The position numbers and the translations under genes are program-made. A DNA stretch of 43,429 nucleotides from an uncultured Gammaproteobacteria bacterium (GTDB lineage: Bacteria > Pseudomonadota > Gammaproteobacteria > Enterobacterales > Psychrobiaceae). Below, in pieces: positions 50 to 17,166 of this stretch. Within the stretch, counting starts at the first letter, position 1. The number at the start of each line of letters is the position of its first letter. Below the pieces are notes generated by a model. The model was not told where the DNA came from. It made no database searches and saw nothing but the letters and a program-made list of their open reading frames with translations. The DNA is taken from NCBI GenBank assembly GCA_913060565.1, contig CAJXRU010000017.1, positions 1-43,429 of the forward strand. The letters run 5' to 3'.

Positions 50-567
50 ACATTATTGGTATTTTAGAAAAGTGCCATAATGATGGCGCCGTCTTATACA
101 TAATGGGAAATGGTGGTAGTGCAGCTACTGCATCGCACATGGCAAATGACTTCTCGGTTGGATTAAAATTAAGAGATATTAGAAATTTTAATGTTCAAAG
201 TTTGTCAGATAATACGCCGGTGTGTTCTGCTATTGCTAATGATATAGGCTATGAAAATGTATTTTATGCTCAGTTAAAACATAAATTAAAACCGCAAGAT
301 GTGGTGATAGCTATTTCTTGCAGTGGTAATAGTGAGAACATTATCAAAGCAAGTCGATATGCAAAAGAAGTTGGTGCGTCTTTGATAGGAATGACAGGCT
401 TCGATGGTGGAGAATTAAAAGCACTCAGTGACGTTAATTTTCATATAAAAACAGATCAAGGTGAGTATGGATTAGTTGAAGACGCTCATATGATTTTAGA
501 CCATGTAATTTATAACTATTACGTTTCCCAAAAGATTGAAAATAAATCGACTTACGTACTCAAATAA
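50..567 (+). CDS. SIS-domain phosphoheptose isomerase-like protein, 5' truncated
   Basis: This is a sugar isomerase (SIS) protein of the GmhA family, whose classical members convert sedoheptulose 7-phosphate to D-glycero-D-manno-heptose 7-phosphate in the cytoplasm. The reading frame is open from base 52, directly after the adapter, so the N-terminus is missing; the ATG at 103 is internal to the fold. Visible motifs are GNGGSAATASHMAND, the phosphate-binding ISCSGNSENI, and VEDAHMILDH near the C-terminus. By eye, the E. coli GmhA metal-site E65 and Q172 correspond to D and E here, while the two histidines are kept. That suggests a capsule or flagellin-type subgroup rather than the housekeeping LPS enzyme. 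The stop lies one base before the next start, so it opens (in this window) the glycan operon. Family is firm, substrate is not. Confidence 0.85.
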
Positions 568-568
568 T

Positions 569-1585
569 ATGCTAAGAATTGGAATCGCTGGCTTTGGTAA
601 AATGGGAAAGATCAGAGCTGAAACAGTGTTTAAAAATCCCCAAACAAGCTTAGTAGCAATATATGAGCAAAGCACAATAACTGACAATATTCTGCTAACT
701 GAAGACGTGAAAATTTGTGATTCATTTGAACAACTTTTATCGCAGCAGCTTGATGCTATCTTTATATGCGCTTTTAATAACGTGGCTGCTGACTATACGA
801 AACGAGCCTTATTGAAAGGTATTCATGTTTTTTGTGAAAAGCCACCAGCTCAAAATACTGCGGAGCTTCAAACTGTAATCGACGCTCAAAAGTTATCTCC
901 TAAGATTTTAAAATATGGATTTAACCATCGACTTCATTACAGTGTTATGCAAGCTAAAAAGTTAATTGACAGCAATGAAATGGGGCGACTTCTTTGGATT
1001 AGAGGTGTATACGGTAAAGCTGGTAGCATTGACTATCACGATAACTGGCGAAACTATAAGAATTATTCTGCTGGTGGAATCTTGATGGATCAAGGCATTC
1101 ATATGCTTGATTTATTTCATCACTTTACCGGGCGAAATTTTGATGTTGTTTCTAGCGAATTATCAGCAGCTTTTTGGGATGTCAAAGTTGAAGATAATGC
1201 ATTTGTAACGCTAAAAAGTGATAATGTTATTGCTACACTTCATTCTAGTGCAACGCAGTGGCGTCACAAGTTTCTCATGGAAATGTGCTTTGAAAATGGC
1301 TTTATCAATCTCGATGGTATTTTATCTGATTCTCGAAGTTACGCGCCTGAGACATTAATAATTGCTAAGCGCGAATTCGAAGATGTGACTTTCGCCATGG
1401 GAAAGCCTGCTGAAAATACCATATGGTTTGAGAATGATGATAGCTGGACATTAGAACTTGATGAGTTTATTGGTGCTATTGAAAATAAATCTGTAGTGCC
1501 TAATGGGACCAGCGAAGACGCTTATAAAGTATTAGATTTAGTCGAACGAATTTATGAACACAGTGGCTTTTATCATGAAAAATAG
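569..1585 (+). CDS. Gfo/Idh/MocA family NAD(P)-dependent sugar dehydrogenase
   Basis: A 338-residue cytoplasmic oxidoreductase of the glucose-fructose/inositol dehydrogenase family, which oxidises or reduces a sugar or cyclitol hydroxyl. The N-terminal Rossmann fold has GFGKMG at about residues 9-14. The family signature CEKPPA follows, with the conserved lysine, and the C-terminal domain carries MDQGIHMLDLFHH with the D-x3-H active-site pair. The ATG at 569 is chosen over an upstream in-frame TTG because it lies just after the previous stop and puts the Rossmann strand at the N-terminus. Its end overlaps the SDR start by 11 bases. Proximity to a sugar-phosphate cyclase makes a cyclitol or heptulose substrate possible, but this is inference. 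Confidence 0.88.
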   Translation: MLRIGIAGFGKMGKIRAETVFKNPQTSLVAIYEQSTITDNILLTEDVKICDSFEQLLSQQLDAIFICAFNNVAADYTKRALLKGIHVFCEKPPAQNTAELQTVIDAQKLSPKILKYGFNHRLHYSVMQAKKLIDSNEMGRLLWIRGVYGKAGSIDYHDNWRNYKNYSAGGILMDQGIHMLDLFHHFTGRNFDVVSSELSAAFWDVKVEDNAFVTLKSDNVIATLHSSATQWRHKFLMEMCFENGFINLDGILSDSRSYAPETLIIAKREFEDVTFAMGKPAENTIWFENDDSWTLELDEFIGAIENKSVVPNGTSEDAYKVLDLVERIYEHSGFYHEK

Positions 1586-2240
1586 AAAGACTGTGTTAAT
1601 CACGGGTGCAAGTCGCGGGATCGGAAAAGCAATTGCAGATAAACTGCTCACCAATTGGAATGTCCTTACGCCAACTAGGCAAGAATTAGATTTGGCTGAT
1701 ACTAATTCAATCGCTGATTTCTTCAAGAAGAATAATCAACCTATAGATGCTTTGGTAAATAATGCTGGAATCAATATTATTAAATCAACGTCCGATATTA
1801 CTGTGAGTGATTTGCGCTTGATTAATCAAATAAACCTAGAGGCCCCTTTATTACTTTCACAATATTGTATGAAATATATGAAGGAAAGAGGTGAAGGGAA
1901 AATAATTAATATTAGTTCTATTTGGGGACTATGTTCAAAGTCTCATCGTGCTCTGTACAGCTCAACAAAAACAGGTCTAATAGGGCAAACACGAGCCTTA
2001 GCAAAAGAGCTTGCGCCCTATAACATTCTCGTTAACTCTGTATGCCCGGGGTTTACAAATACGGAATTAACCGCATCATCATTGAATAATGCACAATTAG
2101 AAAAGTTACTTGAACAGGTTCCGCTATCTAGATTGGCAGAGCCTGAAGAGATAGCTTCACTCGTAGAGTTTTTGGTCTCACCTTTAAATACCTATATTAC
2201 AGGTCAAGCAATCGCTATTGATGGAGGCTTCACAGCGTGA
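1575..2240 (+). CDS. Short-chain dehydrogenase/reductase
   Basis: A classical SDR of 221 residues. It has the TGASRGIG cofactor loop at the N-terminus, VNNAGIN, the catalytic serine in NISSIWG, the YSSTK catalytic Tyr-Lys pair, and the C-terminal GQAIAIDGGF seen in 3-oxoacyl-ACP-reductase-like SDRs. It probably reduces or oxidises a keto group on a sugar or cyclitol intermediate. The ATG at 1575 overlaps the preceding gene and begins directly before the first beta strand (MKNRKTVLITG). The stop overlaps the next start, so translation is probably coupled. The fold and chemistry are clear; the substrate cannot be read from the sequence. Confidence 0.9.
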   Translation: MKNRKTVLITGASRGIGKAIADKLLTNWNVLTPTRQELDLADTNSIADFFKKNNQPIDALVNNAGINIIKSTSDITVSDLRLINQINLEAPLLLSQYCMKYMKERGEGKIINISSIWGLCSKSHRALYSSTKTGLIGQTRALAKELAPYNILVNSVCPGFTNTELTASSLNNAQLEKLLEQVPLSRLAEPEEIASLVEFLVSPLNTYITGQAIAIDGGFTA

Positions 2241-3313
2241 ATGAATTACTAATACATTCAAATATCCACCCTTATAAAGTTTCTTTTGAACCTGACTTTT
2301 CGTTTGTCTCAACATTAATTGAACAAGAAAATGCAGTTTTTATTATTGACCGTATCGTGTTTAAACAATATGAATATGAGTTTTCATCTATTTCGCCCGA
2401 GAGATTGTTGTTAATTGATGCTGTTGAAGAGAACAAAACATACGATTTCGTTAGTAAATTGTATGAGTTTCTGATGTCGCTTAACTGTAAAAAAAATGCA
2501 CACCTAGTATCGATTGGTGGAGGAATTATTCAAGATATTAGTGGTTTTACAGCTTCAACATTATATCGGGGCGTTCATTGGACGTTTATTCCAACAACGT
2601 TACTGGCACAAGCTGATAGCTGCGTAGGCAGTAAAACTTCATTAAATTTTGGCCGTTTCAAAAATATAGTTGGTTCGTTTTATCCTCCTCACCAAATTCA
2701 TATTTGTAGTCAATTTCTTGATAGTCTTTCTGAGCATGAAATTAATAGCGGGTGTGGTGAAATTATTAAATTTATGTTGCTAGATGATCGACATAATATC
2801 TGTTTAGAGTTTATTGAAAAAACTGTACTTAACGCTGTAAATTCAGGGGATTTCCTACCAGCATTGGAACAAAGTTTAGGCGTAAAACAATCGTATATAA
2901 AGCAAGATGAATTTGATACAGGAAAACGCAATTTGTTTAATTATGGCCATTGTTTTGGGCATGCTTTGGAATCTTCATCTGATTTTAGAATTCCCCATGG
3001 GATCGCCGTAATATACGGAATGATTTTTGCTAATATTGTTGCAATGTCACGTGGGTTGGTGACACAAGCCCAATGTAAATTATGGCGCAATACGCTTTTT
3101 GACAAACATTTAAGCTTAGTGCCACTAGAGAGTGAGTTGGATAAAACCAAAATTATTAATGCATTAAAAAATGATAAGAAGCGCATTGGGGAGTTTTTAA
3201 CGATGATTATTCCGTCGTCGAAAACAGTCGATGCAATTAAAATAAACGATCTTACTGAACAAGAAGTGTTAGTGGCACTTGATATATTTTTGAAGGATGT
3301 AGTGAATTTATGA
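2237..3313 (+). CDS. 3-dehydroquinate synthase-like sugar-phosphate cyclase
   Basis: A 358-residue member of the sugar-phosphate cyclase superfamily (AroB, 2-epi-5-epi-valiolone synthase and 2-deoxy-scyllo-inosose synthase types). It shows GGGIIQDISGF (94-104), PTTLLAQADS (119-128), NFGRFKNIVGSFYPP (137-151), E175 in CGEIIK, RNLFNYGHCFGH (231-242) and PHGIAV (253-258). E175, H238 and H254 fit the three metal ligands. It starts with GTG overlapping the SDR stop, nine bases after a clear GGAGG. Its place among sugar-nucleotide genes argues against a housekeeping shikimate role. The NF-G-x-x-KN stretch recalls heptulose-phosphate cyclases, and the nearby GmhA-like isomerase also works on C7 sugar phosphates. 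A cyclitol product is therefore plausible, but a diverged AroB-type reaction cannot be excluded. Confidence 0.85.
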   Translation: MNELLIHSNIHPYKVSFEPDFSFVSTLIEQENAVFIIDRIVFKQYEYEFSSISPERLLLIDAVEENKTYDFVSKLYEFLMSLNCKKNAHLVSIGGGIIQDISGFTASTLYRGVHWTFIPTTLLAQADSCVGSKTSLNFGRFKNIVGSFYPPHQIHICSQFLDSLSEHEINSGCGEIIKFMLLDDRHNICLEFIEKTVLNAVNSGDFLPALEQSLGVKQSYIKQDEFDTGKRNLFNYGHCFGHALESSSDFRIPHGIAVIYGMIFANIVAMSRGLVTQAQCKLWRNTLFDKHLSLVPLESELDKTKIINALKNDKKRIGEFLTMIIPSSKTVDAIKINDLTEQEVLVALDIFLKDVVNL

Positions 3314-4248
3314 AGATTGCAGTAACTTCCAAAGCTTTTGCAGCGAATGAGCCTTTAGTTACGCTGTTAAAGCAGAGCTTTCCCGATTGTAAGTTCAATA
3401 CTACTGGAAAATTATTAAACGATGAGCAGTTGGTTGAATTCGCAAAGGACTGTGATGGCATGATTTTAGCGCTAGAAAATATAGACGATGATGTCTTAAG
3501 GCAACTTCCGAATTTAAAGGCGATCGCTAAATACGGCGTTGGTTTAGATAATGTAGATCAGTCAGCTTGTAAGTTAAATAACGTCGCGCTCTTATGGACT
3601 GCTGGAGTGAATAAAGGATCTGTCGCAGAGATGGCGCTTGGTTTTATGCTGATGCTTAAGCGTCAATTATGGGGTGGTGCTAATTTATTAGCTCAAGGAA
3701 ACTGGAAAAAAGATGGCGGTCAGTCTCTATATCATTCAACAGTGGGGATTATCGGGCTAGGTAACATCGGGAAAGAAGTCGTTAGGTTACTTGCTCCTTT
3801 TGATTGCCGTATTTTGGTCAACGATATTGAATATGATGAGGCCTTTATAGAGCAGCACAAGCTAAATAAAGTGTCGAAAAAAGAACTGGTATCACAAGCC
3901 GACATTATCACGCTGCATACTCCTCTGACGGATAAAACAACCTATTTAATTGATGATGATGTATTGGAGTGCTGTAAAAATGATGCGCTTATTCTTAACA
4001 CTGCTCGGGGCGGTTTGATTGATGAAAAAGCGTTAAAACGTGCGTTGCTTGAAAAAAGAATTGGCGGTGCGGCAATTGATGTTTATGAGCAGGAGCCCCC
4101 AACTGATTTGGCCTTTTTAGAAATAGATAATTTAATTACTACACCACATATTGGTGGAAATTCAGCTCAGGCAGTTTATGCCATGGGAGAGTCGTCAATA
4201 GTTAATTTAAGGAATTACTTTGAAAATAGTAGCAATGATACCTTGTAG
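3310..4248 (+). CDS. D-2-hydroxyacid dehydrogenase (phosphoglycerate dehydrogenase-like)
   Basis: A 312-residue NAD-dependent D-isomer-specific 2-hydroxyacid dehydrogenase, interconverting a 2-hydroxy and a 2-keto acid. The nucleotide-binding loop is GLGNIG (149-154). The catalytic trio is R233 (NTARGG), E262 (YEQEPP) and H280 (TTPHIGG). It is about 100 residues shorter than E. coli SerA and lacks the C-terminal ACT regulatory domain, so it need not serve serine synthesis. It overlaps the cyclase stop by 4 bases and the following TTG-started cytidylyltransferase by 29 bases. In this operon it may make or consume an acid side chain or a keto-acid form of the sugar; that role is inferred. Confidence 0.88.
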   Translation: MKIAVTSKAFAANEPLVTLLKQSFPDCKFNTTGKLLNDEQLVEFAKDCDGMILALENIDDDVLRQLPNLKAIAKYGVGLDNVDQSACKLNNVALLWTAGVNKGSVAEMALGFMLMLKRQLWGGANLLAQGNWKKDGGQSLYHSTVGIIGLGNIGKEVVRLLAPFDCRILVNDIEYDEAFIEQHKLNKVSKKELVSQADIITLHTPLTDKTTYLIDDDVLECCKNDALILNTARGGLIDEKALKRALLEKRIGGAAIDVYEQEPPTDLAFLEIDNLITTPHIGGNSAQAVYAMGESSIVNLRNYFENSSNDTL

Positions 4249-4915
4249 GTTAGGTAGTCAACGAATTAAGCATAAAAATTTACGACTACTTGAAGGTAAG
4301 ACGCTAGCGCAATGGGTAGCAAAAACGTGTAAAGAAACTGGCCTCTTTAGCGATATATATATCAATTCTGAAAGTGATGTTTTTAACGCTATGGCTCAAG
4401 ATAGTGGTATAAAGTTTTATCAACGCCCTGCACACTTATCGACTAATTCAGCGACAAATGATGAATTTTCATTAGACTTTATGAAAAATATTGATTGTGA
4501 TGTATTAGTTCAGGTAAACCCTACCTCACCGTTTACAACAGCTGACGACATCATCAATGTAGTTAAAATGTATAAAGAGCAAGATTGTAAGACTGTACAC
4601 ACAGTAAAAAATGAACAAATAGAAGGGTTGTTTCAAGGGAAACCATTAAACTTTGATGAAACTAAACCTATGCCTCCATCTCAGGAGTTGGTGCCAGTTC
4701 AAATTTTTGCCTCATCGATTATGTTATGGGATGTCCCAGTGTTTAAGAAGAATATGAAAAATCTTTCGTGTGCAGTGTATGGCGGAGAAGATAAAATAGG
4801 CTATTACCCAGTGAAAGGTGCTGCATCTTTAGATATTGATAATGAAGAAGACTTCGAAATGGCAAGTGTAATTGCTGCTTCAAAAAAACAGGAACCGACG
4901 TATTATGAAAAGTGA
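4220..4915 (+). CDS. NeuA-type CMP-sugar cytidylyltransferase (first of two in operon)
   Basis: A 231-residue member of the acylneuraminate cytidylyltransferase family, which couples CTP to a keto-sugar acid to give a CMP-sugar for a glycosyltransferase. The N-terminal nucleotide-binding motif is present in altered form, IPCRLGSQRIKHKN, with the R-x-GS-x-R and KN positions kept. NPTSPF and DIDNEEDFE near the end are also typical. The start is TTG at 4220, six bases after AAGGA. The next in-frame ATG (4235) would cut into the first beta strand. It differs clearly from PseF at 14271 and from the second copy at 11627, so it probably activates a different sugar. Confidence 0.85.
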   Translation: MKIVAMIPCRLGSQRIKHKNLRLLEGKTLAQWVAKTCKETGLFSDIYINSESDVFNAMAQDSGIKFYQRPAHLSTNSATNDEFSLDFMKNIDCDVLVQVNPTSPFTTADDIINVVKMYKEQDCKTVHTVKNEQIEGLFQGKPLNFDETKPMPPSQELVPVQIFASSIMLWDVPVFKKNMKNLSCAVYGGEDKIGYYPVKGAASLDIDNEEDFEMASVIAASKKQEPTYYEK

Positions 4916-5327
4916 TGCTGATGTACCGAATATATTAAAAGCCGACGGAGTCGCGCAAAGTTTTTTTGAGAATGCAAATCAATCAGTAACTAATATACCT
5001 GAGTTGATTAAAAAATATGGCACCGATTCGTCATGGTCTCACACGTTAGTTAACTCAGAATCAAATTCTTCGACGTTGATTTGTCAGCTACCAGGTGAGG
5101 GGAACCGCCGACATCATCATCCTGACTGGAACGAGTGGTGGTTTATCGTCCAAGGTACTTGGATATGGGAAATTGAAGGGAAAGAAATGCATGTTTCTGC
5201 AGGGGATTTTGTGTTTATTGAAAAGCACAAAAAGCACAAGATAACTGCTGCTGGAGATAAGGCTGCTCTTCGAATTGCCGTTAGTAGATATGATGTTGAA
5301 CATGTATATGACGACGGTGATTACTAA
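4905..5327 (+). CDS. Small cupin-domain protein
   Basis: A 140-residue single-domain cupin. The first cupin motif reads RRHHHPDWNEWWFIVQG, giving histidines and a glutamate as likely metal ligands. The second is GDFVFIEKHKKHKI. The layout recalls small cupins such as 3-hydroxyanthranilate dioxygenase-like proteins and sugar epimerase/isomerase cupins, but the reaction cannot be assigned. The ATG at 4905 lies inside the cytidylyltransferase end (11-base overlap), with AGGAA upstream. The next gene begins immediately after its stop. It probably acts on an intermediate of the same sugar or its acyl group. Confidence 0.75.
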   Translation: MKSDADVPNILKADGVAQSFFENANQSVTNIPELIKKYGTDSSWSHTLVNSESNSSTLICQLPGEGNRRHHHPDWNEWWFIVQGTWIWEIEGKEMHVSAGDFVFIEKHKKHKITAAGDKAALRIAVSRYDVEHVYDDGDY

Positions 5328-6461
5328 ATGAAAACGTTGTTTAAGTTAAAACCAAATTTGATGCGTTCGAAAGGTTCACGGCTATTTGATGAGGTTAGTG
5401 ATTCCTATTTCATAGATTTATTTTCTATGTACTCTTCATTACCTCTAGGCTACAACCACGAGGCCTTTGATGGTGATTTTGAAACTGAAGCGTTAGTGCT
5501 CGCCAAGCATAGACTATGTTCAAATGCATTTGAATTTGAAATTGTTAATAGACTTAAACAGGCCTTGGCGGAAGTTACTTTTGCCAAGGAATATCATTTT
5601 TGTTGCACTGGTGCATTAGCAATTGAATCTGCTATCAAGCTTGCGATAGATAACAAAATAGTGGAGAACCCGAGAGTAATATCAATTACTAATTCATTTC
5701 ATGGTGTCAACAGTTGGGGTTTTACAACAAGCAGAGTGGGTGTAACTGAAAAACGGCTGTTGAATTACCCACAGCTTGAATGGCCGAATCTGACCATAGA
5801 AAACGCAATCGAATACTTAAAATCACAAGATTTGCGCAATGTTGTTGCTGTGGTTGTTGAACCTATTCAGTGCACTAGTGGTGATATTTATTTGTCCCCT
5901 GATTCAATTCGAGAACTACGTAATCTTTGCAGACAAAACAAGGTTTGTTTTATTTTGGACGAAATTCAAACAGGATTTGCTACAACGGGAAGGTATTGGT
6001 ACTACGAGCATTTAGGCATTGAACCAGATCTATTGGTTTTTGGTAAAAAATCTCAAGTTTGTGGTGTCGCGATGTCGATTGAATATGAAAATATCTATCG
6101 AGAATCATACCAAAAGTTACAGGTGACTTTTGATGGTGATTTGTTAGATATGTTGCGATGTATCTATCTAATTAATCACATCAAATCTCATCGAGTATTA
6201 GAACGCGTGTCAGATAATCAAAAACTGTTCCATAGATTATTATCACCAATGGTTGAAAACTATCGTGGTATCGGCCATTTGATCGCATTTGATTTCGAAA
6301 CAACGTCAAAAAGAGACCGTTTTGTGTGTCAATGTTTATCTGAAGGGCTATTAGTTAATAGAGCTGGAGAGTTCACTATTCGATTACGTCCAAACCTTGC
6401 TATTGGCGAGGAAACAATCGAAACGGTTATCAAGATAATGAAAGGACAGCTATGCGATTAG
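5328..6461 (+). CDS. Class III PLP aminotransferase, lysine 6-transaminase-like
   Basis: A 377-residue fold-type I aminotransferase. The phosphate loop is CCTGALAIESAIK (92-104), followed by SFHG (123-126), EPIQ (178-181), LDEIQTG (210-216) and FGKKSQVCG (238-246), with the PLP lysine most likely K240. The FGKKxQVCG block and the C-terminal RLRPNL most resemble L-lysine 6-transaminase rather than glutamate-1-semialdehyde or ornithine enzymes. The family is usually nearer 450 residues, so this copy is compact. It follows the cupin with no spacer and overlaps the next gene by 10 bases. It probably installs an amino group on a terminal aldehyde or ketone of the sugar, cyclitol or side chain. The exact substrate is unknown. 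Confidence 0.82.
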   Translation: MKTLFKLKPNLMRSKGSRLFDEVSDSYFIDLFSMYSSLPLGYNHEAFDGDFETEALVLAKHRLCSNAFEFEIVNRLKQALAEVTFAKEYHFCCTGALAIESAIKLAIDNKIVENPRVISITNSFHGVNSWGFTTSRVGVTEKRLLNYPQLEWPNLTIENAIEYLKSQDLRNVVAVVVEPIQCTSGDIYLSPDSIRELRNLCRQNKVCFILDEIQTGFATTGRYWYYEHLGIEPDLLVFGKKSQVCGVAMSIEYENIYRESYQKLQVTFDGDLLDMLRCIYLINHIKSHRVLERVSDNQKLFHRLLSPMVENYRGIGHLIAFDFETTSKRDRFVCQCLSEGLLVNRAGEFTIRLRPNLAIGEETIETVIKIMKGQLCD

Positions 6462-7417
6462 AAGAATGGATTCAACGTCATACTAACGGTGCTGGTGTAT
6501 ATTTAGCTCCTCAAAATGACTGTACGGTTAATGTTTTTTCCTTTTTGAAGGAAAAAGACTTTTTTTGCGAAGGGTTTATCGATTCATTTAAGCAAGGCTC
6601 AGCAATAATTCACCCTAATGAATTACCTAATGAGTCAACAGTTCTAATCTATAGCCCAAATTATTGGCGTGATATTATTTCCAGTACCAGAAATTCACGT
6701 CATTTCCTGCTTATCGAAAAGCACCATGATTTTCACGTTGTGAGTATTGATGATTTTGATGGTGAATTTCCCGTGATGAATTTTAATTCATTAATATCTC
6801 AAAAGCATTTTTGGGAAAATCATATGCGTAATTATCTTGATGCAGGAGGAGATATTAATGAGTATGGTTTTAGCTGGGGAGATCCTGAAGATGCGAACGA
6901 CGAACTCGGAAATTATGCAAGTATTTCTCAGGAACTACTTGCAGAAATCGGTGCTGAAGATCATGTCGTTGAATTAGGTGCTCTTAGCGGTAAGTGGACG
7001 AAATACTTACTCAGCGCGAATAAAGTCACTTGTGTCGACATTAATGCACTCAGTGAAAAAATAATTCGAGAGCGATATCTATCTCAAAATGAAAAAATTG
7101 ATTTTTATTTATCTCGTGGCAATGAACTTCAAGGCCTCGAAGATAAGTCTGTTGATTACTTGTTTTGTATAGATACCTTAGTGCGATCGAGTGAGGCCAT
7201 CATAGTTGACTATATCAATGAGACTCGGCGCGTGTTAAAGAGAGGTGGAAAAGCACTGATTCATCTTCCTGCCACTGATATTGAACAATGCGCTGCCAGA
7301 GGATTTACAATGTTGGATATTGATAAGTTGAAATTTAAAAGCTTAAGTGGCTTTCAGGACTTCAAAATTGATAGTGAATCGATAAAACACGGTGTGTTAT
7401 TACGATTAAAAAAATAG
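6452..7417 (+). CDS. Fusion: unrecognised N-terminal module + class I methyltransferase
   Basis: A 321-residue protein. Residues about 15-100 form a module I do not recognise, with A19-P20, FIDSFKQG (42-49) and YSPNYW (67-72). The same landmarks occur in the proteins at 10510 (+) and 14278 (-). Residues about 150-321 are a SAM-dependent methyltransferase, with motif I VVELGALSG (172-180), an acidic residue in VTCVDIN (192-198), LFCIDTL, and VLKRGGKALIHLP. It probably methylates the operon's sugar or an intermediate. The ATG at 6452 overlaps the aminotransferase end by 10 bases. The methyltransferase call is good; the role of the N-terminal module is unknown. Confidence 0.75.
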   Translation: MRLEEWIQRHTNGAGVYLAPQNDCTVNVFSFLKEKDFFCEGFIDSFKQGSAIIHPNELPNESTVLIYSPNYWRDIISSTRNSRHFLLIEKHHDFHVVSIDDFDGEFPVMNFNSLISQKHFWENHMRNYLDAGGDINEYGFSWGDPEDANDELGNYASISQELLAEIGAEDHVVELGALSGKWTKYLLSANKVTCVDINALSEKIIRERYLSQNEKIDFYLSRGNELQGLEDKSVDYLFCIDTLVRSSEAIIVDYINETRRVLKRGGKALIHLPATDIEQCAARGFTMLDIDKLKFKSLSGFQDFKIDSESIKHGVLLRLKK

Positions 7418-7426
7418 AGTATATTA

Positions 7427-9265
7427 ATGAAAATAATAGGAATATCTGGCCTGTTTCATGATGCTGCTGCTGCTGCTGTTGTCGATGGTAAGGTCGTTGC
7501 TGCTGCTCAGGAAGAGCGCTTTACAAGACTAAAGCATGATGCAAATCTTCCTGTAAACTCGATTAAATTTTGTTTGCAATTTATTGGCTGTGAATTGGAG
7601 GACTTGGATGCCATAGTATTTTATGATGACCCGCTTCTTAAATTGGAACGCTGTTTAGCCATCGGTAGTATGTCGAAGTCTGACAACAGTGAATTGCTAT
7701 CAGACTTACTTGAAGAGCACTTAACTCATAAACTTTGGGTAGAAAACTTGTTGCGTGAAGAGTTTCAACAATCCCTAGGTAAGCTTGATAGACTTTTATA
7801 CTCTAAGCATCACCATTCTCATGCCGCAAGTGCTTTTTATCCTTCACCATTTGAAAGCTCTGCTATTTTGGTAATTGACGGTGTGGGGGAATGGGCAACA
7901 ACTTCAATAGGCTTTGGTAAAGGAAAAGATATAGAATTTATCAAAGAACTGAAGTTTCCGCATTCTTTGGGTCTGTTATACAGCGCGTTTACTTACTATT
8001 GTGGCTTTAAGGTAAACTCTGGTGAGTATAAGTTAATGGGGCTCGCGCCATACGGTCAGCCTACCTATGTAGAAAAAATTGAGCAATATTTAATTCGCTT
8101 CAATGATGATGGCTCATTTGAATTAAACATGGAATATTTTGGTTTTGTCGATAATCAGCAAATGATTAATGATGCTTTTTGCGAAGTGTTTAATGAGCCA
8201 ATTCGTACACCAGAGTCAGAATTAACACAATTTTATTTAAATATCGCGGCATCTATACAAATTGTGCTTGAGAAAGCAGTATTGAGACTGTGTGAGGCAA
8301 CTAGGAGATTCACTAAATGTGATAATCTCGTATTAGCTGGCGGAGTTGCACTTAATTGCGTTTCTAATAGTAAAATTTTAAAGTCTGGAATATTTAAAAA
8401 TATTTGGATACAGCCCGCTGCGGGTGATGCTGGAGGTGCTTTGGGAGCAGCGCTCATCACCTATCACCAATATTTTAATCAGCAGCGATATCTTAATTCC
8501 TGCTTAGGTGACAGCCAGAACAATTCTCTTTTAGGACCAGAGTATAGCCAGCGTGACATTGTTCATTATTTGAATGCGGTTCAAGCAAAATATGAAGTTT
8601 TCTCTAATCGGGACGAATTAAATAGAGAAACTTGCAGATTGTTGTTAGAAGAAAAAGTGATTGGATATTTTGATGGTCGGATGGAGTTTGGCCCAAGAGC
8701 ACTAGGGAGTAGATCAATCATCGGTATTGCGTCTTCGAAAAATATGCAGTCAAAGATGAATCTAAGGATAAAGTATAGGGAATCGTTTCGACCTTTCGCA
8801 CCTATAGTAGCCCAAAAAAATGCACATAAATTCTTTCAAAATGGTTTTGAAAGTCCTTATATGCTATTGGTCGATGACTGCAAAGACGAATTAATCATTA
8901 AAGACTACAATATCCCTAAAGTTGAGAGTGAATCTGACTTGTACACATGGGTAAACTCTCCGAGATCTATAATCCCGTCTGTCACGCATATAGATTATAG
9001 CGCTAGAGTTCAGACGATTAGTCAAAAACAAGAGCATCATTTTTATAGCTTACTTGAAGAATTAGAAAAGCATACAGATACCCCGGTCCTAATTAACACC
9101 TCCTTTAATGTTAGAGGCGAGCCAATAGTTTGTAATCCACAAGATGCTTATGAGTGCTTTATGAATACTGATATGGATATACTTATTTTAGGCGATGTAT
9201 TGTTAAAAAAGAAAAATAATTTACACAATGAACCATCCAGTAAGGGAGCGCATAAACTTGATTGA
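7427..9265 (+). CDS. NodU/CmcH family carbamoyltransferase
   Basis: A 612-residue O-carbamoyltransferase of the NodU/CmcH/TobZ family, which transfers a carbamoyl group from carbamoyl phosphate (through an ATP-dependent adenylate) to a hydroxyl of a sugar or cyclitol. The N-terminal ASKHA/Kae1-like part begins GISGLFHDAAAA and contains KHHHSHAASAFYPSPF and DGVGEW, then MGLAPYG and LAGGVALNCVSN. The C-terminal half has YFDGRMEFGPRALGSRSI, RPFAPIV and LINTSFNVRGEPIVC. Length is normal and all landmark motifs are intact. It starts ten bases after the methyltransferase and overlaps the small gene that follows. It probably decorates the glycan made by this operon. Confidence 0.93.
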   Translation: MKIIGISGLFHDAAAAAVVDGKVVAAAQEERFTRLKHDANLPVNSIKFCLQFIGCELEDLDAIVFYDDPLLKLERCLAIGSMSKSDNSELLSDLLEEHLTHKLWVENLLREEFQQSLGKLDRLLYSKHHHSHAASAFYPSPFESSAILVIDGVGEWATTSIGFGKGKDIEFIKELKFPHSLGLLYSAFTYYCGFKVNSGEYKLMGLAPYGQPTYVEKIEQYLIRFNDDGSFELNMEYFGFVDNQQMINDAFCEVFNEPIRTPESELTQFYLNIAASIQIVLEKAVLRLCEATRRFTKCDNLVLAGGVALNCVSNSKILKSGIFKNIWIQPAAGDAGGALGAALITYHQYFNQQRYLNSCLGDSQNNSLLGPEYSQRDIVHYLNAVQAKYEVFSNRDELNRETCRLLLEEKVIGYFDGRMEFGPRALGSRSIIGIASSKNMQSKMNLRIKYRESFRPFAPIVAQKNAHKFFQNGFESPYMLLVDDCKDELIIKDYNIPKVESESDLYTWVNSPRSIIPSVTHIDYSARVQTISQKQEHHFYSLLEELEKHTDTPVLINTSFNVRGEPIVCNPQDAYECFMNTDMDILILGDVLLKKKNNLHNEPSSKGAHKLD

Positions 9266-9566
9266 TTCTAAAAAAATAGTATTGGACTTCGTAAAACGAC
9301 ACAATATCGAATTTAGTAATCTAGAGCGTAAATGTGTCTATAGCTCGACTGAATTTTCCACACCAGAATTTAAAGCTTTGAGCAAAGCTGATTTTGAAAA
9401 AGCCAATAATAAGGATATTCAGAGTTTTTTATTTGATTACTTACAGAATAGAAATGAAGGTATTAGCGAAGAGTTTTTAAAAGAGTTACAAGAGCTAATT
9501 TTAGTTTTAAAGGAACGTGATTTACGTACACTTTCGTCTCCATCAGCATTTGTTTATACGCTTTAG
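9258..9566 (+). CDS. Small protein of unknown function following the carbamoyltransferase
   Basis: I do not recognise this protein. It is small, charged and probably soluble, with no signal peptide or membrane segment. Residues are mostly helix-formers with a Lys/Glu-rich C-terminal half. Two starts are possible: ATG at 9228 (112 residues, 38-base overlap with the carbamoyltransferase) or TTG at 9258 (102 residues). I prefer TTG because AAGGGAG lies nine bases upstream, and other genes here use TTG after good ribosome sites. The stop is eight bases before the SGNH gene. It may be a partner of the carbamoyltransferase or an acyl-carrier-like helper, but no Asp-Ser-Leu carrier motif is visible. 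Confidence 0.6.
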   Translation: MIDSKKIVLDFVKRHNIEFSNLERKCVYSSTEFSTPEFKALSKADFEKANNKDIQSFLFDYLQNRNEGISEEFLKELQELILVLKERDLRTLSSPSAFVYTL

Positions 9567-9574
9567 GGAAATTC

Positions 9575-10495
9575 ATGGAAGAGCAAATTCAACAAACAAT
9601 TATAACAGGTATAGACCCTCATATAGGCTATAACTATTCTCGTGGTAGTGACTTTCCTCTGATGGTTGGCGAATCATTTCACAATGGATATATCAAACTT
9701 AATACGTCAGACAATACGAGTAATGGTATTGCTGTATTAGGCGGCTCTACTAGTGACATCTCATATGACGGCAGTTGGTTAAGGCCTTTTCGAGAATTAT
9801 TATCTAAAAATGGTTTTGATGTTCCTTTGTTTTCCGGGGCTGTGTCTGGCTACTCTTCAAATCAAGAGGTTTTTAAACTGATCAGAGATATCTTGCCATT
9901 ATCACCTAAAATTGTTATTTCTTTTAATGGTGTTAATGATTTGTGGCATATCCAATCAACTAGCCCAACTCATCCAATGGTTCATTCTTATCAAAATAGA
10001 CTCTTTCAGCATTTACTCCCAAACAAAAATACTGAAAAAGAACAATTTTTTGATAGCTTTAAGAATGTTAGCGGAGCCGTCGCCTTTAATGACAATTATC
10101 CACTGTCCTCAGTTAATTTGGGAACTCAGAGTAAGCTAACACCTAGTCAGAACTGGTATAAAAACAGCCAGTTGATGTATGCAATTTGTAAACAATTTAA
10201 TATTCAATATATTAATATATTACAACCCGTGATAGGTGCTGGAGCATATCATTTGAACGAAATTGAAAAGAAATTTTTTGAGCAAAAGTGCCGCGAATGG
10301 GTTGGGTATGAACAGGCAATTAAAGATTTTTTTTATGATGCGAGGAGTTATGCAACCAGCCATGAATATATACACGATTTTGTAGATATTTTTTCAGATT
10401 GTAGAGATATGTATGGAGATATTAGGCATCCTAATAAAAGTGGCAATGAGATAATTGCGCAGGCCGTTTCATCATTGATTTATCCACATTTATAA
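9575..10495 (+). CDS. SGNH/GDSL-type hydrolase or acyl esterase
   Basis: A 306-residue cytoplasmic SGNH-fold protein. Block I is AVLGGSTSD with the nucleophile serine in place of GDS. The block II glycine falls in FSGAVSGYSSNQE, block III is SFNGVNDLW with the asparagine, and block V is DIRHPNKSGN with the Asp and His. There is no signal peptide, which argues against a secreted lipase and for removing or transferring an O-acyl group on the sugar being built. It lies between the small unknown gene and the DUF115 gene with short spacers, so it probably belongs to the same transcript. Family is well supported, substrate is not. Confidence 0.8.
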   Translation: MEEQIQQTIITGIDPHIGYNYSRGSDFPLMVGESFHNGYIKLNTSDNTSNGIAVLGGSTSDISYDGSWLRPFRELLSKNGFDVPLFSGAVSGYSSNQEVFKLIRDILPLSPKIVISFNGVNDLWHIQSTSPTHPMVHSYQNRLFQHLLPNKNTEKEQFFDSFKNVSGAVAFNDNYPLSSVNLGTQSKLTPSQNWYKNSQLMYAICKQFNIQYINILQPVIGAGAYHLNEIEKKFFEQKCREWVGYEQAIKDFFYDARSYATSHEYIHDFVDIFSDCRDMYGDIRHPNKSGNEIIAQAVSSLIYPHL

Positions 10496-10509
10496 GAAGA
10501 GCATAACTA

Positions 10510-11616
10510 ATGAGAGAATTTAGGAGTAATGCTCCAAACGTCTTAGAATATAGTAGGGTTTTATTTGCTCCTGCATCAGAATTGACCTTAGAACTCCAAA
10601 AACATCTAGTTGATGAGTTTAATATCACTAGTATTGGCTTTATCGATAAGTTCAAACAAGGAAAATCAATTTTTGATTCAGTCAATGGATTAAGTTTTGA
10701 TTTCGTTATCGTCGCTAGCCCAAACTATCAAATTGAAATACTTAAAAATTTTCCTTTTACAGATCTTTACTATGTTGAATATAGATCTGTCAGTCGCTTT
10801 TATGACTTTAAACGTTTATCTTGTGCTCGACATTTCTTAATAAAGCAAAATATTCAATTTTATGAATGGTTTAGGGGAAATTTTCTAGCAAAACTTCAAG
10901 AGCTAAAGCATATAAAAAGAGGTTTTGCGTTAAAACAATATAAAAATACGCATCTGGGGAAACGTGCATTTATATTAGCGAATGGACCGAGCTTGAATAC
11001 TAATGATATAGAAAAAACTAAGAATGATATTAGTTTTGCGGCAAATAAGATTTGGCTTACTTTTGAAGATACCGATTTTAGACCGACTTATTATTGCGTA
11101 ACTGATTACTTAGTTATGACTCAAAATTATTCTCAAATCGCAAAATTAGAATCTGACGGTAAATTCTTTCCAGATTATTTTTTGCCGCCAGTTCTGCCTA
11201 AATTAAATAATGTGCACTACTTTGATTGCTTATCAGAGATTACAAGTGACATACATCTTGAAAAAGGAATTTATCCGGGGCATACAGTCATATTTACGAT
11301 GATTATGTTAGCTATTTATATGGGAATTAAAGAGATATACCTAATAGGCTTGGACCATAGATTTTTGATACCAAAAAATTTTATAGGGCGTGATACTGAG
11401 GAGCCTATTGTCAGTGAAGGTGAGGTAAACCATTTTCATCCTGATTACAGAAAACCTGGAGAAAAGTGGGCTCAGCCACAAATGGAAGAACTGACACAAG
11501 CATTTATAAACGCAAAAGAAATTGCAAAAGTTAACGATGTTGAGATCTTAAATGCGTCTCGATATTCTGAATTAACTGTTTTTCAACGCGTTTCTTTTGA
11601 TGAAATAGATTTTTAA
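10510..11616 (+). CDS. Fusion: unrecognised N-terminal module + DUF115/Maf-like domain
   Basis: A 368-residue protein. Residues about 12-100 repeat the module of the 6452 protein (AP 20-21, GFIDKFKQG 43-51, ASPNY 69-73). Residues about 148-350 look like the DUF115 / MptE-like domain shared with Maf (motility-associated factor) flagellin glycosyltransferases: AFILANGPSLN (153-163), then a GIYPGHTVIFTMIML helix and EIYLIGLDH. Known Maf proteins carrying this domain are needed to attach nonulosonic acids to flagellin. This copy is much shorter than full Maf proteins. It is therefore a candidate glycosyltransferase for the operon's CMP-sugar, which is inference. It sits just before the second cytidylyltransferase. 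Confidence 0.75.
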   Translation: MREFRSNAPNVLEYSRVLFAPASELTLELQKHLVDEFNITSIGFIDKFKQGKSIFDSVNGLSFDFVIVASPNYQIEILKNFPFTDLYYVEYRSVSRFYDFKRLSCARHFLIKQNIQFYEWFRGNFLAKLQELKHIKRGFALKQYKNTHLGKRAFILANGPSLNTNDIEKTKNDISFAANKIWLTFEDTDFRPTYYCVTDYLVMTQNYSQIAKLESDGKFFPDYFLPPVLPKLNNVHYFDCLSEITSDIHLEKGIYPGHTVIFTMIMLAIYMGIKEIYLIGLDHRFLIPKNFIGRDTEEPIVSEGEVNHFHPDYRKPGEKWAQPQMEELTQAFINAKEIAKVNDVEILNASRYSELTVFQRVSFDEIDF

Positions 11617-11626
11617 GGAGCGAACA

Positions 11627-12304
11627 TTGAAAGACATCGGAAAAGTTATTATTCATATTCCAGCAAGAGGTGGGAGTAAGCGTGTACCTAGAAAAAATTT
11701 ACGCCAAATGAATGGAAAGCCGATGGTTTCATATGCTATTGAAAGTGCGATTAAGGCAGATGTTACCAATGATATATACGTGAATACTGATTGCAATGAT
11801 ATTGCGCATTATGTATTGGGAGAATATCCAATAAATGTTTATATGCGTTCAAAAAATTTAGCGACGGACAATGCTACAAGCGATGACTTTAATTTAGATA
11901 TCATTGAAAAGCTTTGTCCAGATACACTTGTTATGATTAACCCTGTGTGTCCGCTAATTACCCATGAAGATATTAGATTAGCGTTGCATCTTTATCGGGA
12001 CAGTGATTGCGATACGTTGATTTCAAGTTGTAAAACAAATATGCAGTGTTTTTGTAATGGAGAAGCTATTAATATCAATGTTGAAGAGCAATTAGCCCCT
12101 AGCCAAGAAAATAATGAAGTAATCACTTTAAATTGGGCCATTTCAGTTTGGAATGCTAAAAAGTTTAAAAACAGGATGCGTGATAGGGGGTATGCTGTCT
12201 TAGGTGAGCATCGTGTATTTTATAACATTAGCTCAATTAAAGGAGTGAAAGTTAGCAATGAAGAAGATTTTTTATTCTGTGAAAAGTTACTTCAGTTAAA
12301 TTAG
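11627..12304 (+). CDS. NeuA-type CMP-sugar cytidylyltransferase (second of two in operon)
   Basis: A 225-residue acylneuraminate cytidylyltransferase family protein with a textbook nucleotide-binding start, IPARGGSKRVPRKN. MINPVCPLI and VSNEEDFLF are further landmarks. The TTG at 11627 is the start, because AAGGAG ends six bases before it and no in-frame ATG lies nearby before the motif. It is the last gene of the plus-strand glycan operon and converges on the minus-strand fusion gene with a 54-base gap. It differs from both PseF (14271) and the copy at 4220, so it may activate a third sugar or a modified form of the same one. Confidence 0.85.
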   Translation: MKDIGKVIIHIPARGGSKRVPRKNLRQMNGKPMVSYAIESAIKADVTNDIYVNTDCNDIAHYVLGEYPINVYMRSKNLATDNATSDDFNLDIIEKLCPDTLVMINPVCPLITHEDIRLALHLYRDSDCDTLISSCKTNMQCFCNGEAININVEEQLAPSQENNEVITLNWAISVWNAKKFKNRMRDRGYAVLGEHRVFYNISSIKGVKVSNEEDFLFCEKLLQLN

Positions 12305-12358
12305 CACATAAATGTGCAGCAGCCAGAGAGTGAACTACACTTGATGCACTAAAACTTA

Positions 12359-14278
12359 TTATTTTTGTTTACATATCATCATCTGTGTTGCTTGTTCAAG
12401 ATTAGTGACACGGTGATCTACGACATCAAAAAATCTAGATACGTAGTTGTAAAACTCTTGAAAATTCCACTCTCTTTGGTGGGTCATATTTTTTGGAGGG
12501 CCAAATTTGGCTGGATCATCATCGCAGTAAACTAAATCGCGTTCTGGTGTTGACAACACTAGGTATTCAAATGATTGATTCTGTATAAACGTTAATAGTT
12601 GATCTGGATTTACTAAATGTTCAATTACGTCAGAACAGATAACTACGTCTGTAGTAAAGCTGTTATGACTTACAAAGTTTGAGGTTTTCCATTTATGATC
12701 GGGGTATTTCTGTTTCAGAATTGAGACGTTTTCAGGTAATTCATAACCAGTGGTGTCGTATTGGCTTAAGTATGTTTTCAGTTTGAACCCCGAACCACAA
12801 CCAATATCTACTACTTTGTTAAAGTTATTTCTCACCATTAACCCTAAGGCGTGTAAATAAACCTCTAATTGCCATTCGTCCTCACATTCTTGGTCGTCAT
12901 AGTGATTGTATGCGTTTCGAGCGCTATAGCGAGGATCAATTTCAAAACATTGTTCGGATGAAAAGTCGACTTTATCACGCTCGTCGAGCAAATTTTTTAT
13001 TCGATATGCGGCCAACTTAGCTGGTGGAATAGGAGATGAAATATTACATTTTTTATCTAAAAACTCGAAAGCTTGTTGTCGTATGTGTTCTTTGTTTAAT
13101 AAGCTATTGACTATTGCTTGCTTTAGTGTGTGACGATCAGATGCTATGTCGTATGCGCTCATAGGCGATTTATACAGTTTAACTGTTTCATTGTGAGGAT
13201 TGTAATAAACCACCGGCTTTCCTAGTGCCAATGATTCCAGAATTACTGTGCTAAATCGACTGATCACTATAGTATTTTTCCGAATCGTGTCATAGATATT
13301 TTCGGAAGAAACGTCATCAGAAGAAAACTTTCCGTTATCGGCGTGATGCTGAGCGATAGTGTATGGCAGGTTTAATTCATCGCACACGCTTTTTATGTCG
13401 TTGACCCAATTCTCTCTGACTTCTTCGAACGTACCATAAGTAAAGTTTACATTAATAACTACTTTATCTTGGTTAGGGAAATTAACAGTTTCTCGATACA
13501 TGTTGTACATTTTGGGTAACCCAATTATCGATGTTTTGTTCGTTTTGTGTGCTAAATGCTTTTGATCATCTCTTCCCATCAAAAGAACATGTTCGACAGT
13601 GTTGTATGCGTTACGCTCATAGTCGTAGTCGCTGTCTTCAAAATCTTCGATACCATCTACAATTCCCATGGTTAAGGCTCCCCTTTGCCTTTCTTGAGTA
13701 AGAAAGGGTCTAGCAAAACTCTGTTCCCAATCAATAGAGGCAACAGTAATACTTTTTGATATTGAGTTGGCGCTGTCTTTATGAATAACTGAAATATCTG
13801 GATTTTCTTTAAAGCCTTCGAGACTATTGCAATTTATATCCGAATCGAAATCGACCATAACACTTGATAATCCAAGCTGCTTTAACTCTCTAGCTATCAG
13901 TGACAGATCGGTGATGTTAGATTTATTAAAAGGCATTAGTAAAACGTCTACTTGGGTGTCACTGTTGAGTTTGGCAAGGTAATCATTGTATGAAATGAGC
14001 TCCTGCCCAGATTTACGATAAAGTAACACTTTTGATTTATCGAAATTTTCGGCAATTTCTTTCCAATAGTTCGGACTTTGGATGAGAACATAATCGTAAT
14101 CTTCTACTTGCTCTGGAGAAATTACACCTGGTTGTGTTTTGAAAGAGTCTACATAGGCGAGAACGTTTACATCGAGGTTTTTCACTTCATTGAAAAGGTT
14201 GACAGCTGGTGGATTATATGGGGCAACATAGACTTTGTTGCCAATTAATTCAGCAATAGATGATATTTTATTAGTCAT
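12359..14278 (-). CDS. Three-domain fusion: unknown module + GT-B-like domain + methyltransferase
   Basis: A 639-residue protein. Residues 16-100 repeat the module of the 6452 protein with identical spacing (AP 19-20, YVDSFK 42-47, SPNYW 68-72). Residues about 108-430 resemble a GT-B/CDP-glycerol-transferase-like surface carbohydrate protein, with a late block ISRFSTVILES followed by LALGKPVVYYNPH (339-362). Residues about 450-639 are a class I methyltransferase, with VVDIGCGSG (489-497), VICSDVIEHL and YLVLSTPERD. The ATG overlaps the pseF stop, so it is the last gene of the pse operon. It could transfer and methylate a sugar. It lacks the RADAS-type start of PseG, so I do not propose it as PseG. 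Confidence 0.75.
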   Translation of the reverse strand: MTNKISSIAELIGNKVYVAPYNPPAVNLFNEVKNLDVNVLAYVDSFKTQPGVISPEQVEDYDYVLIQSPNYWKEIAENFDKSKVLLYRKSGQELISYNDYLAKLNSDTQVDVLLMPFNKSNITDLSLIARELKQLGLSSVMVDFDSDINCNSLEGFKENPDISVIHKDSANSISKSITVASIDWEQSFARPFLTQERQRGALTMGIVDGIEDFEDSDYDYERNAYNTVEHVLLMGRDDQKHLAHKTNKTSIIGLPKMYNMYRETVNFPNQDKVVINVNFTYGTFEEVRENWVNDIKSVCDELNLPYTIAQHHADNGKFSSDDVSSENIYDTIRKNTIVISRFSTVILESLALGKPVVYYNPHNETVKLYKSPMSAYDIASDRHTLKQAIVNSLLNKEHIRQQAFEFLDKKCNISSPIPPAKLAAYRIKNLLDERDKVDFSSEQCFEIDPRYSARNAYNHYDDQECEDEWQLEVYLHALGLMVRNNFNKVVDIGCGSGFKLKTYLSQYDTTGYELPENVSILKQKYPDHKWKTSNFVSHNSFTTDVVICSDVIEHLVNPDQLLTFIQNQSFEYLVLSTPERDLVYCDDDPAKFGPPKNMTHQREWNFQEFYNYVSRFFDVVDHRVTNLEQATQMMICKQK

Positions 14279-14965
14279 AACTCATTTCTTTAGTTATTTT
14301 GAAAATCAATTGTGCGCGTTGCCAATCGTCGATAGTATCAATGTCTTGGGCCAAATAACTGGGGATAATAATAGGACTTGTGTTACTCGAAAAAATTTGT
14401 GCTGTCCGTAAGTATGCGTATGATGTGCCCCAATAAAATTGTCCTGCGTCATGAATCACTGTCGTTAAATCTTGAGATCGCTTGTCTATATTGTGGTCAA
14501 AAAATGGCTTAACTGAACCCGATTGTGTAATCGTTAGAGAGCGTTGAATGGGAAAATCATAATGCGTTGCAGCAAAACAGAAATCTCTTTTATATTCTTC
14601 TAAAGCCTTAAATCCGCTACGTAAATCTTTAATATCAAGCATTGGGGCTGTTGCATAAATCAAACACGCATATTCAAATTCAATTCCTTGCTCCAAATAC
14701 CACTCAATCGCATGCTTTGCTACCGCAGTCGTCCCCGTATAATCGTCAGCCAGTTCCTTGGGTCTCATAAACGGCGTTTCTGCTCCATAATTGCGTGCAA
14801 CTTCTGCTATTTCTTCATCGTCAGTTGAGACTATTACTTTATCAAATAAGCCACTTTTGATAGCCGTTTCAATAGAATATGCAATGATTGGCTTTCCGCA
14901 AAAGTCTTTAATGTTTTTTCGAGGTATGCGTTTGCTACCACCGCGTGCCGGAATTATTGCGAGAT

Positions 14966-14969
<4 letters not shown>
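14271..14969 (-). CDS. pseF: Pseudaminic acid cytidylyltransferase
   Basis: A 232-residue cytidylyltransferase that converts pseudaminic acid and CTP to CMP-pseudaminate, the donor for flagellin O-glycosylation. The nucleotide-binding motif IPARGGSKRIPRKN is at the N-terminus, followed by GKPIIAYSIETA, VSTDDEEIAEVA, ATAPML and DIDTIDDW, all typical of PseF. The ATG at 14969 overlaps the pseC stop as ATGA and has AGGA upstream; an in-frame TTG six bases earlier is less likely. Being directly after pseB and pseC fixes the assignment to the pseudaminic rather than the sialic acid pathway. Confidence 0.92.

Positions 14970-17166
<2,197 letters not shown>

Follow-up and report, generated by a model that had tools for sequence, protein, structure and literature searches.

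Why should enzymes as unlike as a methyltransferase, a Maf-like protein and a probable glycosyltransferase-methyltransferase fusion, encoded in one flagellin-glycosylation region, begin with the same module? The question is raised by a 43,429-nt stretch of DNA from an uncultured Gammaproteobacteria bacterium (the window), in which open reading frames (ORFs) at 6452 (+), 10510 (+) and 14278 (-) encode the proteins A, B and C. The module probably lets the three sugar enzymes handle one activated sugar. By analogy with its relatives, it may be a re-tooled binding platform for a nucleotide-activated nonulosonic acid, most likely cytidine monophosphate-pseudaminic acid (CMP-Pse) or a decorated form of it, a reading to which we assign a probability of roughly 0.45.

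The original prediction had seen a common pattern (A-P, [FY]-[IV]-D-[SK]-F-K and SPNY) in the three N-termini, and both the ORFs and the motif positions agreed with it: AP at residues 19-20, FIDSFK at 42-47 and SPNY at 68-71 in A; AP at 20-21, FIDKFK at 44-49 and SPNY at 70-73 in B; and AP at 19-20, YVDSFK at 42-47 and SPNY at 68-71 in C. Sequence comparison confirmed that the likeness extends beyond the three motifs, over one homologous module of about 90 residues. BLOSUM62 local alignment of residues 1-115 gave scores of 75 (A-B), 140 (A-C) and 82 (B-C), against best shuffled scores of 55, 48 and 65, respectively, with 0 of 2000 shuffles per pair reaching the real score. These scores ruled out three different families for the three N-termini, and Pfam returned no match over the module of A, B or C at E ≤ 1.

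The module occupies 6488-6754 (+; approximately residues 13-101 of 321) in A, 10552-10812 (+; approximately residues 15-101 of 368) in B and 13979-14245 (-; approximately residues 12-100 of 639) in C. As had been claimed, it sits on unrelated enzymes. A continues with a class I methyltransferase domain (PF13649/PF08241; Pfam, residues 172-271) at 6965-7264 (+), B with an MptE-like/DUF115 domain (PF01973; Pfam, residues 129-285) at 10894-11364 (+), and C ends in a methyltransferase domain (PF13489; Pfam, residues 483-611) at 12446-12832 (-). The GT-B domain also claimed for C is the weaker call: the probable GT-B part lies at 12971-13957 (-; approximately residues 108-436), where the NCBIfam models TIGR04396 and NF046086 matched residues 325-436 at 1.9e-4, under their cut-offs, the earlier bounds being our own reading.

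Searching the genome itself with protein C retrieved the copy of A and a further one on contig C101, which heads protein D, a second fusion of the module with an MptE-like/DUF115 domain (PF01973), as in B, and 35% identical to B. A profile of the four copies recovered exactly these four from the genome (E 5e-34 to 2e-41, on the profile's own training rows). The copies have diverged, with 14-34% identity to that of A.

Beyond this genome, modules with A-P after the first strand (AP-type) were found in six of 295 genomes sampled from the order, the own one included (G000, G057, G058, G063, G094, G294), and in 15 of 196 genomes of the sampled family that contains Alteromonas. The phylum sample (349 genomes) gave four genomes, the own one among them and all from its order, and the class sample (369 genomes, narrow profile) the own genome and two chance matches only. 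No AP-type module was found in the eight other genomes of the window's genus that were examined. Viral contigs that were scanned held no relatives, and a Foldseek search of viral models returned nothing at E ≤ 0.001. Altogether, 22 AP-type proteins were counted in 19 genomes: A, B, C, D, two C orthologs (G094 and G735, the latter being the Alteromonas arenosi protein over the 590 residues available) and 16 TagF-like fusions, in four of which Pfam confirmed the TagF domain (PF04464), the other 12 being assigned by tblastn similarity to one of these. As judged from these sequences, the module is joined to four kinds of enzyme, namely a methyltransferase, an MptE/Maf-like protein, a GT-B plus methyltransferase and a TagF-like phosphotransferase. 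Left out of the counts were RsmI-like proteins in G333 and G579 as chance matches, matches in G079, G111 and G258 (the frame in G111 looks unrelated on reading), and modules with a glycine-rich (GxG) loop in G036, in G038, in the second match of G063 and on an FkbM protein in G193.

No name for the module came from sequence searches of Pfam, NCBIfam and the PDB. The PglD_N model (PF17836) matched neither A, B and C (E ≤ 1) nor D and five relatives (E ≤ 10), the Methyltransf_14 model (PF08484) had no match over the module and none in the own genome at E ≤ 0.001, and an AP-type profile found no significant match in the PDB. To this extent the expectation of a nameless family held, with no curated Pfam or NCBIfam family at the thresholds used, but the module could nevertheless be placed. 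Profile comparison of a 22-row AP-type alignment with 37 rows of GxG-type modules, from which loci fetched for Methyltransf_14 and PglD_N had been removed (a few look-alikes of both remain), gave a probability of 97.2% (E 4.8e-11, 71 columns), and the six window-like AP-type rows alone gave 95.6%. The maximum among 16 control families from the same loci was 3.2%; four of these are classical Rossmann domains (SDR, GFO, PseB and 2-hydroxyacid dehydrogenase), and identity of the module with any of the four was rejected on these values. The same GxG rows were matched by a Methyltransf_14 set at 99.0% and by a PglD_N set at 98.8%. Sequence comparison thus places the AP-type module as a divergent branch of the GxG-type Rossmann group that includes PglD_N, the C-terminal domain of Methyltransf_14 and modules of many enzymes of surface-sugar metabolism.

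The GxG profile was built from seven seeds from the fetched loci, with AP-type rows kept out. Against it, 29 of 49 AP-type ORF copies outscored the best background ORF (6.7 bits). Because of drift, iterated recruitment with AP-type rows allowed in was set aside, and the figures used come from runs excluding them. When 19 AP-type rows and 22 GxG rows were placed in one tree, a branch with support 99/97 separated the two sets, the inner forks being mostly unsupported. Three loci (L076, L082 and L084) encode a second TagF-like protein with a GxG module at its N-terminus, so the AP-type module fills a slot that is filled elsewhere by GxG modules.

A Rossmann-like fold had been anticipated, and the model of C agreed with it. 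AlphaFold, run on residues 1-105 of C with an alignment of A, B and the A. arenosi protein (L038), returned a model with a predicted local distance difference test (pLDDT) of 85 and a predicted template-modelling score (pTM) of 0.78, comprising strand 15-19, helix 23-34, strands 38-43 and 63-66, helix 72-76, strands 84-88 and 93-96, and helix 97-104. All 50 PDB matches listed by Foldseek were Rossmann enzymes (E 1.5e-3 to 2.8e-2, query template-modelling score 0.46-0.56), among them 2-hydroxyacid dehydrogenases, ketol-acid reductoisomerase, adenosylhomocysteinase and similar enzymes.

In this model, the AP, D44, K47 and SPNY of C sit where the first three strands end or immediately beyond, and strand ends are where Rossmann domains bind ligands. 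P20, D44 and K47 were invariant in 19 of 19 aligned rows. A-P (T-P in two rows) replaces the glycine-rich loop after strand 1 in all 19, and the acidic residue after strand 2, just past strand 38-43 in the model, is kept as D in all of them; SPNY is a sub-group feature (8/19). Fifteen strand-end positions, a set picked after the motifs had been seen, were more conserved than the 53 others (p = 0.0017; p = 5e-5 for the six window-like rows).

To place the module in its genomic setting, the stretches around it in the 18 non-own genomes (16 of about 19.5 kb, one of 16 kb and one 8.4-kb contig) were searched by tblastn with the proteins of the window and of C101. Matches to Pse genes lay inside the first stretch in 16 of the 18 loci and, in G703 and G735, in the adjoining stretch, some 10 kb away from the module, giving 18/18, a count with no random-locus baseline. 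At least three Pse-gene matches were obtained in 17 loci; the 18th, the 8.4-kb contig, had a PseH-like match with SDR and AMP-ligase neighbours. Since a PseB match at E ≤ 1e-60 was found in 145 of the 196 family genomes, co-occurrence at the genome level is weak evidence, and the association observed at the locus level was used instead. Flagellin or other flagellar genes were seen in four of the 18 genomes (G063, G058, G735 and G094) within the stretches fetched, further stretches having been fetched for three genomes only. Loci L091 and L093 (G735 and G094) showed several flagellin gene matches in tandem next to Pse genes.

As to function, the original prediction had left docking, scaffolding and substrate recognition side by side. 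Direct support for the first two was lacking, and we infer ligand recognition as the favoured role because the module's kin bind sugar nucleotides and because of the position of the invariant residues. PDB relatives of the GxG profile included UDP-QuiNAc dehydrogenase (3nkl, E 6e-14), Rex (6e-6), WbaP (8e-5), VioB (8e-4) and, more weakly, a PglD-like hexapeptide acetyltransferase (E 0.007). In the PglD relative Pcryo_0637, the N-terminal domain is a platform for uridine diphosphate (UDP): the ribose hydroxyls are close to Ser 11 and Asp 40, Asp 41 holds the uracil, and backbone amides (Cys 13, Ala 75) lie near the phosphates (PMC8040287). By analogy with Pcryo_0637, and without superposition, the AP loop, D44 and the SPN loop of the module would line a similar site. 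CMP-Pse is favoured as the ligand because every partner enzyme is encoded in a Pse locus and has plausible substrates that are CMP-linked or carry Pse, and because of this analogy.

In the proposed course of events, a GxG-type module would have lost the glycine loop after strand 1 to A-P and kept the acidic residue after strand 2, while the lysine three residues further on became fixed. The AP-type module would then have been joined to four kinds of enzyme in Pse loci, so that each catalytic domain would be offered one and the same ligand (CMP-Pse or a decorated form of it) and would modify it or pass it on. Two reports provide background: Shewanella sfmA-D mutants show similar mass shifts, from which the authors suggest that the modification is assembled before transfer (PMC3765264), and a proposed precedent for TagF-like phosphotransfer in the modification of flagellin is the Clostridioides difficile type A glycan, with CD0244 and CDP-threonine (PMC10714395). 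A stricter version is more tentative: the AP-type would be a new family dedicated to CMP-Pse, a portable handle on all four kinds of enzyme by which the late steps of Pse decoration would recognise a single carrier-bound sugar, its carboxylate or phosphate being read by the invariant lysine.

Several observations weigh against the CMP-Pse platform and the placement behind it. The AP-type has lost the glycine loop, which in relatives makes contact with the nucleotide, and donor sites are already present in the GT-B, TagF and Maf domains themselves. The seed choice for the GxG profile was not blind, because seeds L013 and L035 were first met as weak matches of the AP-type profile. Narrow sets compared with the module by hhalign gave only 23% (Methyltransf_14) and 22% (PglD), the varied GxG set having placed the module where these had not. 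Against the GxG profile, the copy of B ties with the best background ORF at 6.7 bits, and only one AP-type protein (two copies, L033/L083) reached E < 0.001 as calculated for a million sequences. No PDB match of the C model was found by Foldseek at E ≤ 0.001, and a model led by B was poor (pLDDT 66), with BRCT domains as its best, non-significant matches. Finally, the Pse association is not unique to the AP-type, because GxG modules occur in the same loci.

Among the alternatives, acceptor docking, in which the module would bind flagellin or its chaperone and bring each enzyme to the protein, fares best and is still unlikely. It draws on the Pse loci, some of them beside flagellin or flagellar genes in the four genomes named above, and its strongest precedent is FlmG of Caulobacter, a Pse transferase that binds flagellins via its N-terminal domain (PMC7591256). 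That domain, however, consists of TPR repeats unrelated to the module, whose own kin are sugar-nucleotide-binding domains and whose invariant residues lie at strand ends, the usual place of ligand binding in Rossmann domains. Less probable again is a scaffold, with modules binding one another or a shared partner and so holding the Pse-decorating enzymes together: the four copies of this genome, three of them in the window and one on C101, would suit it, but only one AP-type match was found in each of the 18 non-own genomes, which means that multi-copy self-assembly is not the general rule, and the copies are as divergent as given above. Least probable is a structural relic, a former nucleotide-binding domain now only aiding folding or stability, which would explain the lost glycine loop and the low identity between copies but not the invariant P, D and K or the conservation of the strand ends (p = 0.0017, for the set picked after the motifs were seen).

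If the CMP-Pse platform is correct, the presence of the module identifies an enzyme as acting on Pse ahead of its transfer or in the course of it. Sequence alone could then place uncharacterised methyltransferases, GT-B proteins and TagF-like enzymes in the Pse pathway, and an example would be gained of one recognition domain reused to build a tailoring pathway. The fold and the wider group are already known; in the literature searched, no paper describing the module was found, nor a description of the AP-type branch, its range of partners or its tie to Pse loci.

The window links a glycosylation region with flagellar genes. Next to C, the window encodes PseF, the pseudaminic acid cytidylyltransferase (14271-14975, -; TIGR03584, 333.9 bits, cut-off 205.7), a DegT-family aminotransferase (14966-16114, -) and a Polysacc_synt_2 dehydratase (16111-17148, -), the latter two named PseC-like and PseB-like from family and position. 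Its flagellar genes comprise FleQ-type and FlrC-like regulators, a histidine kinase, FliE, FliF, FliG, FliH, a flagellar ATPase and a FliK-like protein. Contig C101 encodes a flagellin, FliD, an 831-residue Maf protein, PseG-like and PseH-like (GNAT) proteins, NeuB/PseI, a HAD protein, a GT2 protein and D; the names PseG and PseH are our reading, and the Pfam match of the PseG-like protein is under its cut-off. In the window and C101, Pse genes adjoin flagellar genes, as in a Pse flagellin-glycosylation locus. The HAD-like and GT2 proteins neighbouring D (L070:1354-4664, -) both end in a GxG Rossmann module, and AP-type (at the start of D) and GxG modules thus stand side by side in the L070 locus.

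In A. arenosi (L038), a C ortholog and a GT2 gene precede a SIS-GFO-SDR-DHQS-2HADH run, the same run that opens the window; therefore, C101 probably abuts the window's left end, and by this analogy all four module copies would lie in one cluster. The run belongs to an operon at 103-6461 (+) that encodes a GmhA-like SIS protein, an inositol-dehydrogenase-like GFO enzyme, an SDR, a 2-hydroxyacid dehydrogenase, a cytidylyltransferase-like protein, a cupin, a class III aminotransferase and an AroB-related cyclising phospholyase (TIGR04425, 411.7 bits, cut-off 400), and by its gene content looks like a cyclitol or unusual-sugar pathway. Much of it has relatives adjoining the C orthologs in A. arenosi and G094. 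Between A and B lie a NodU-like carbamoyltransferase (PF02543/PF16861; 7427-9265, +) and a GDSL-type hydrolase (9575-10495). Of three cytidylyltransferase-family genes (4220-4915, 11627-12304 and 14271-14975), the last alone attains the PseF cut-off, so the region may produce more than one CMP/CDP-activated compound.

Compared with known systems, the Maf/MptE-like flagellin glycosyltransferases (PF01973) have their catalytic domain in common with B and D. The plasmid relatives of B differ from it in the absence of the module, since they align from residue 113 onward in seven of seven records. FlmG resembles the module-bearing proteins in having an N-terminal add-on to a Pse transferase (PMC7591256); given its TPR repeats, this is an analogy at most.

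Further likenesses were found within the GxG group. Methyltransf_14 (PF08484) is collinear with the module, and its D...KQG and PNY/PWN-EI stretch resemble it; the tie runs through the GxG profile (99.0%), direct comparison giving 23%. Unlike this C-terminal domain, the module is N-terminal and without the glycine loop, and by our reading of the alignments it is two residues shorter between D and K. PglD_N (PF17836), linked through the same profile (98.8%, against 97.2% for the module), differs in having a glycine loop and a Pfam model and in serving hexapeptide acetyltransferases, whereas the partners of the module are transferases. The PglD relative binds the UDP part of a UDP-sugar (PMC8040287), whereas sugar-nucleotide binding by the module is predicted. 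Both are nonetheless small domains that accompany a sugar enzyme and have an acidic residue following strand 2, and the model of C suggests a Rossmann-like fold for the module as well.

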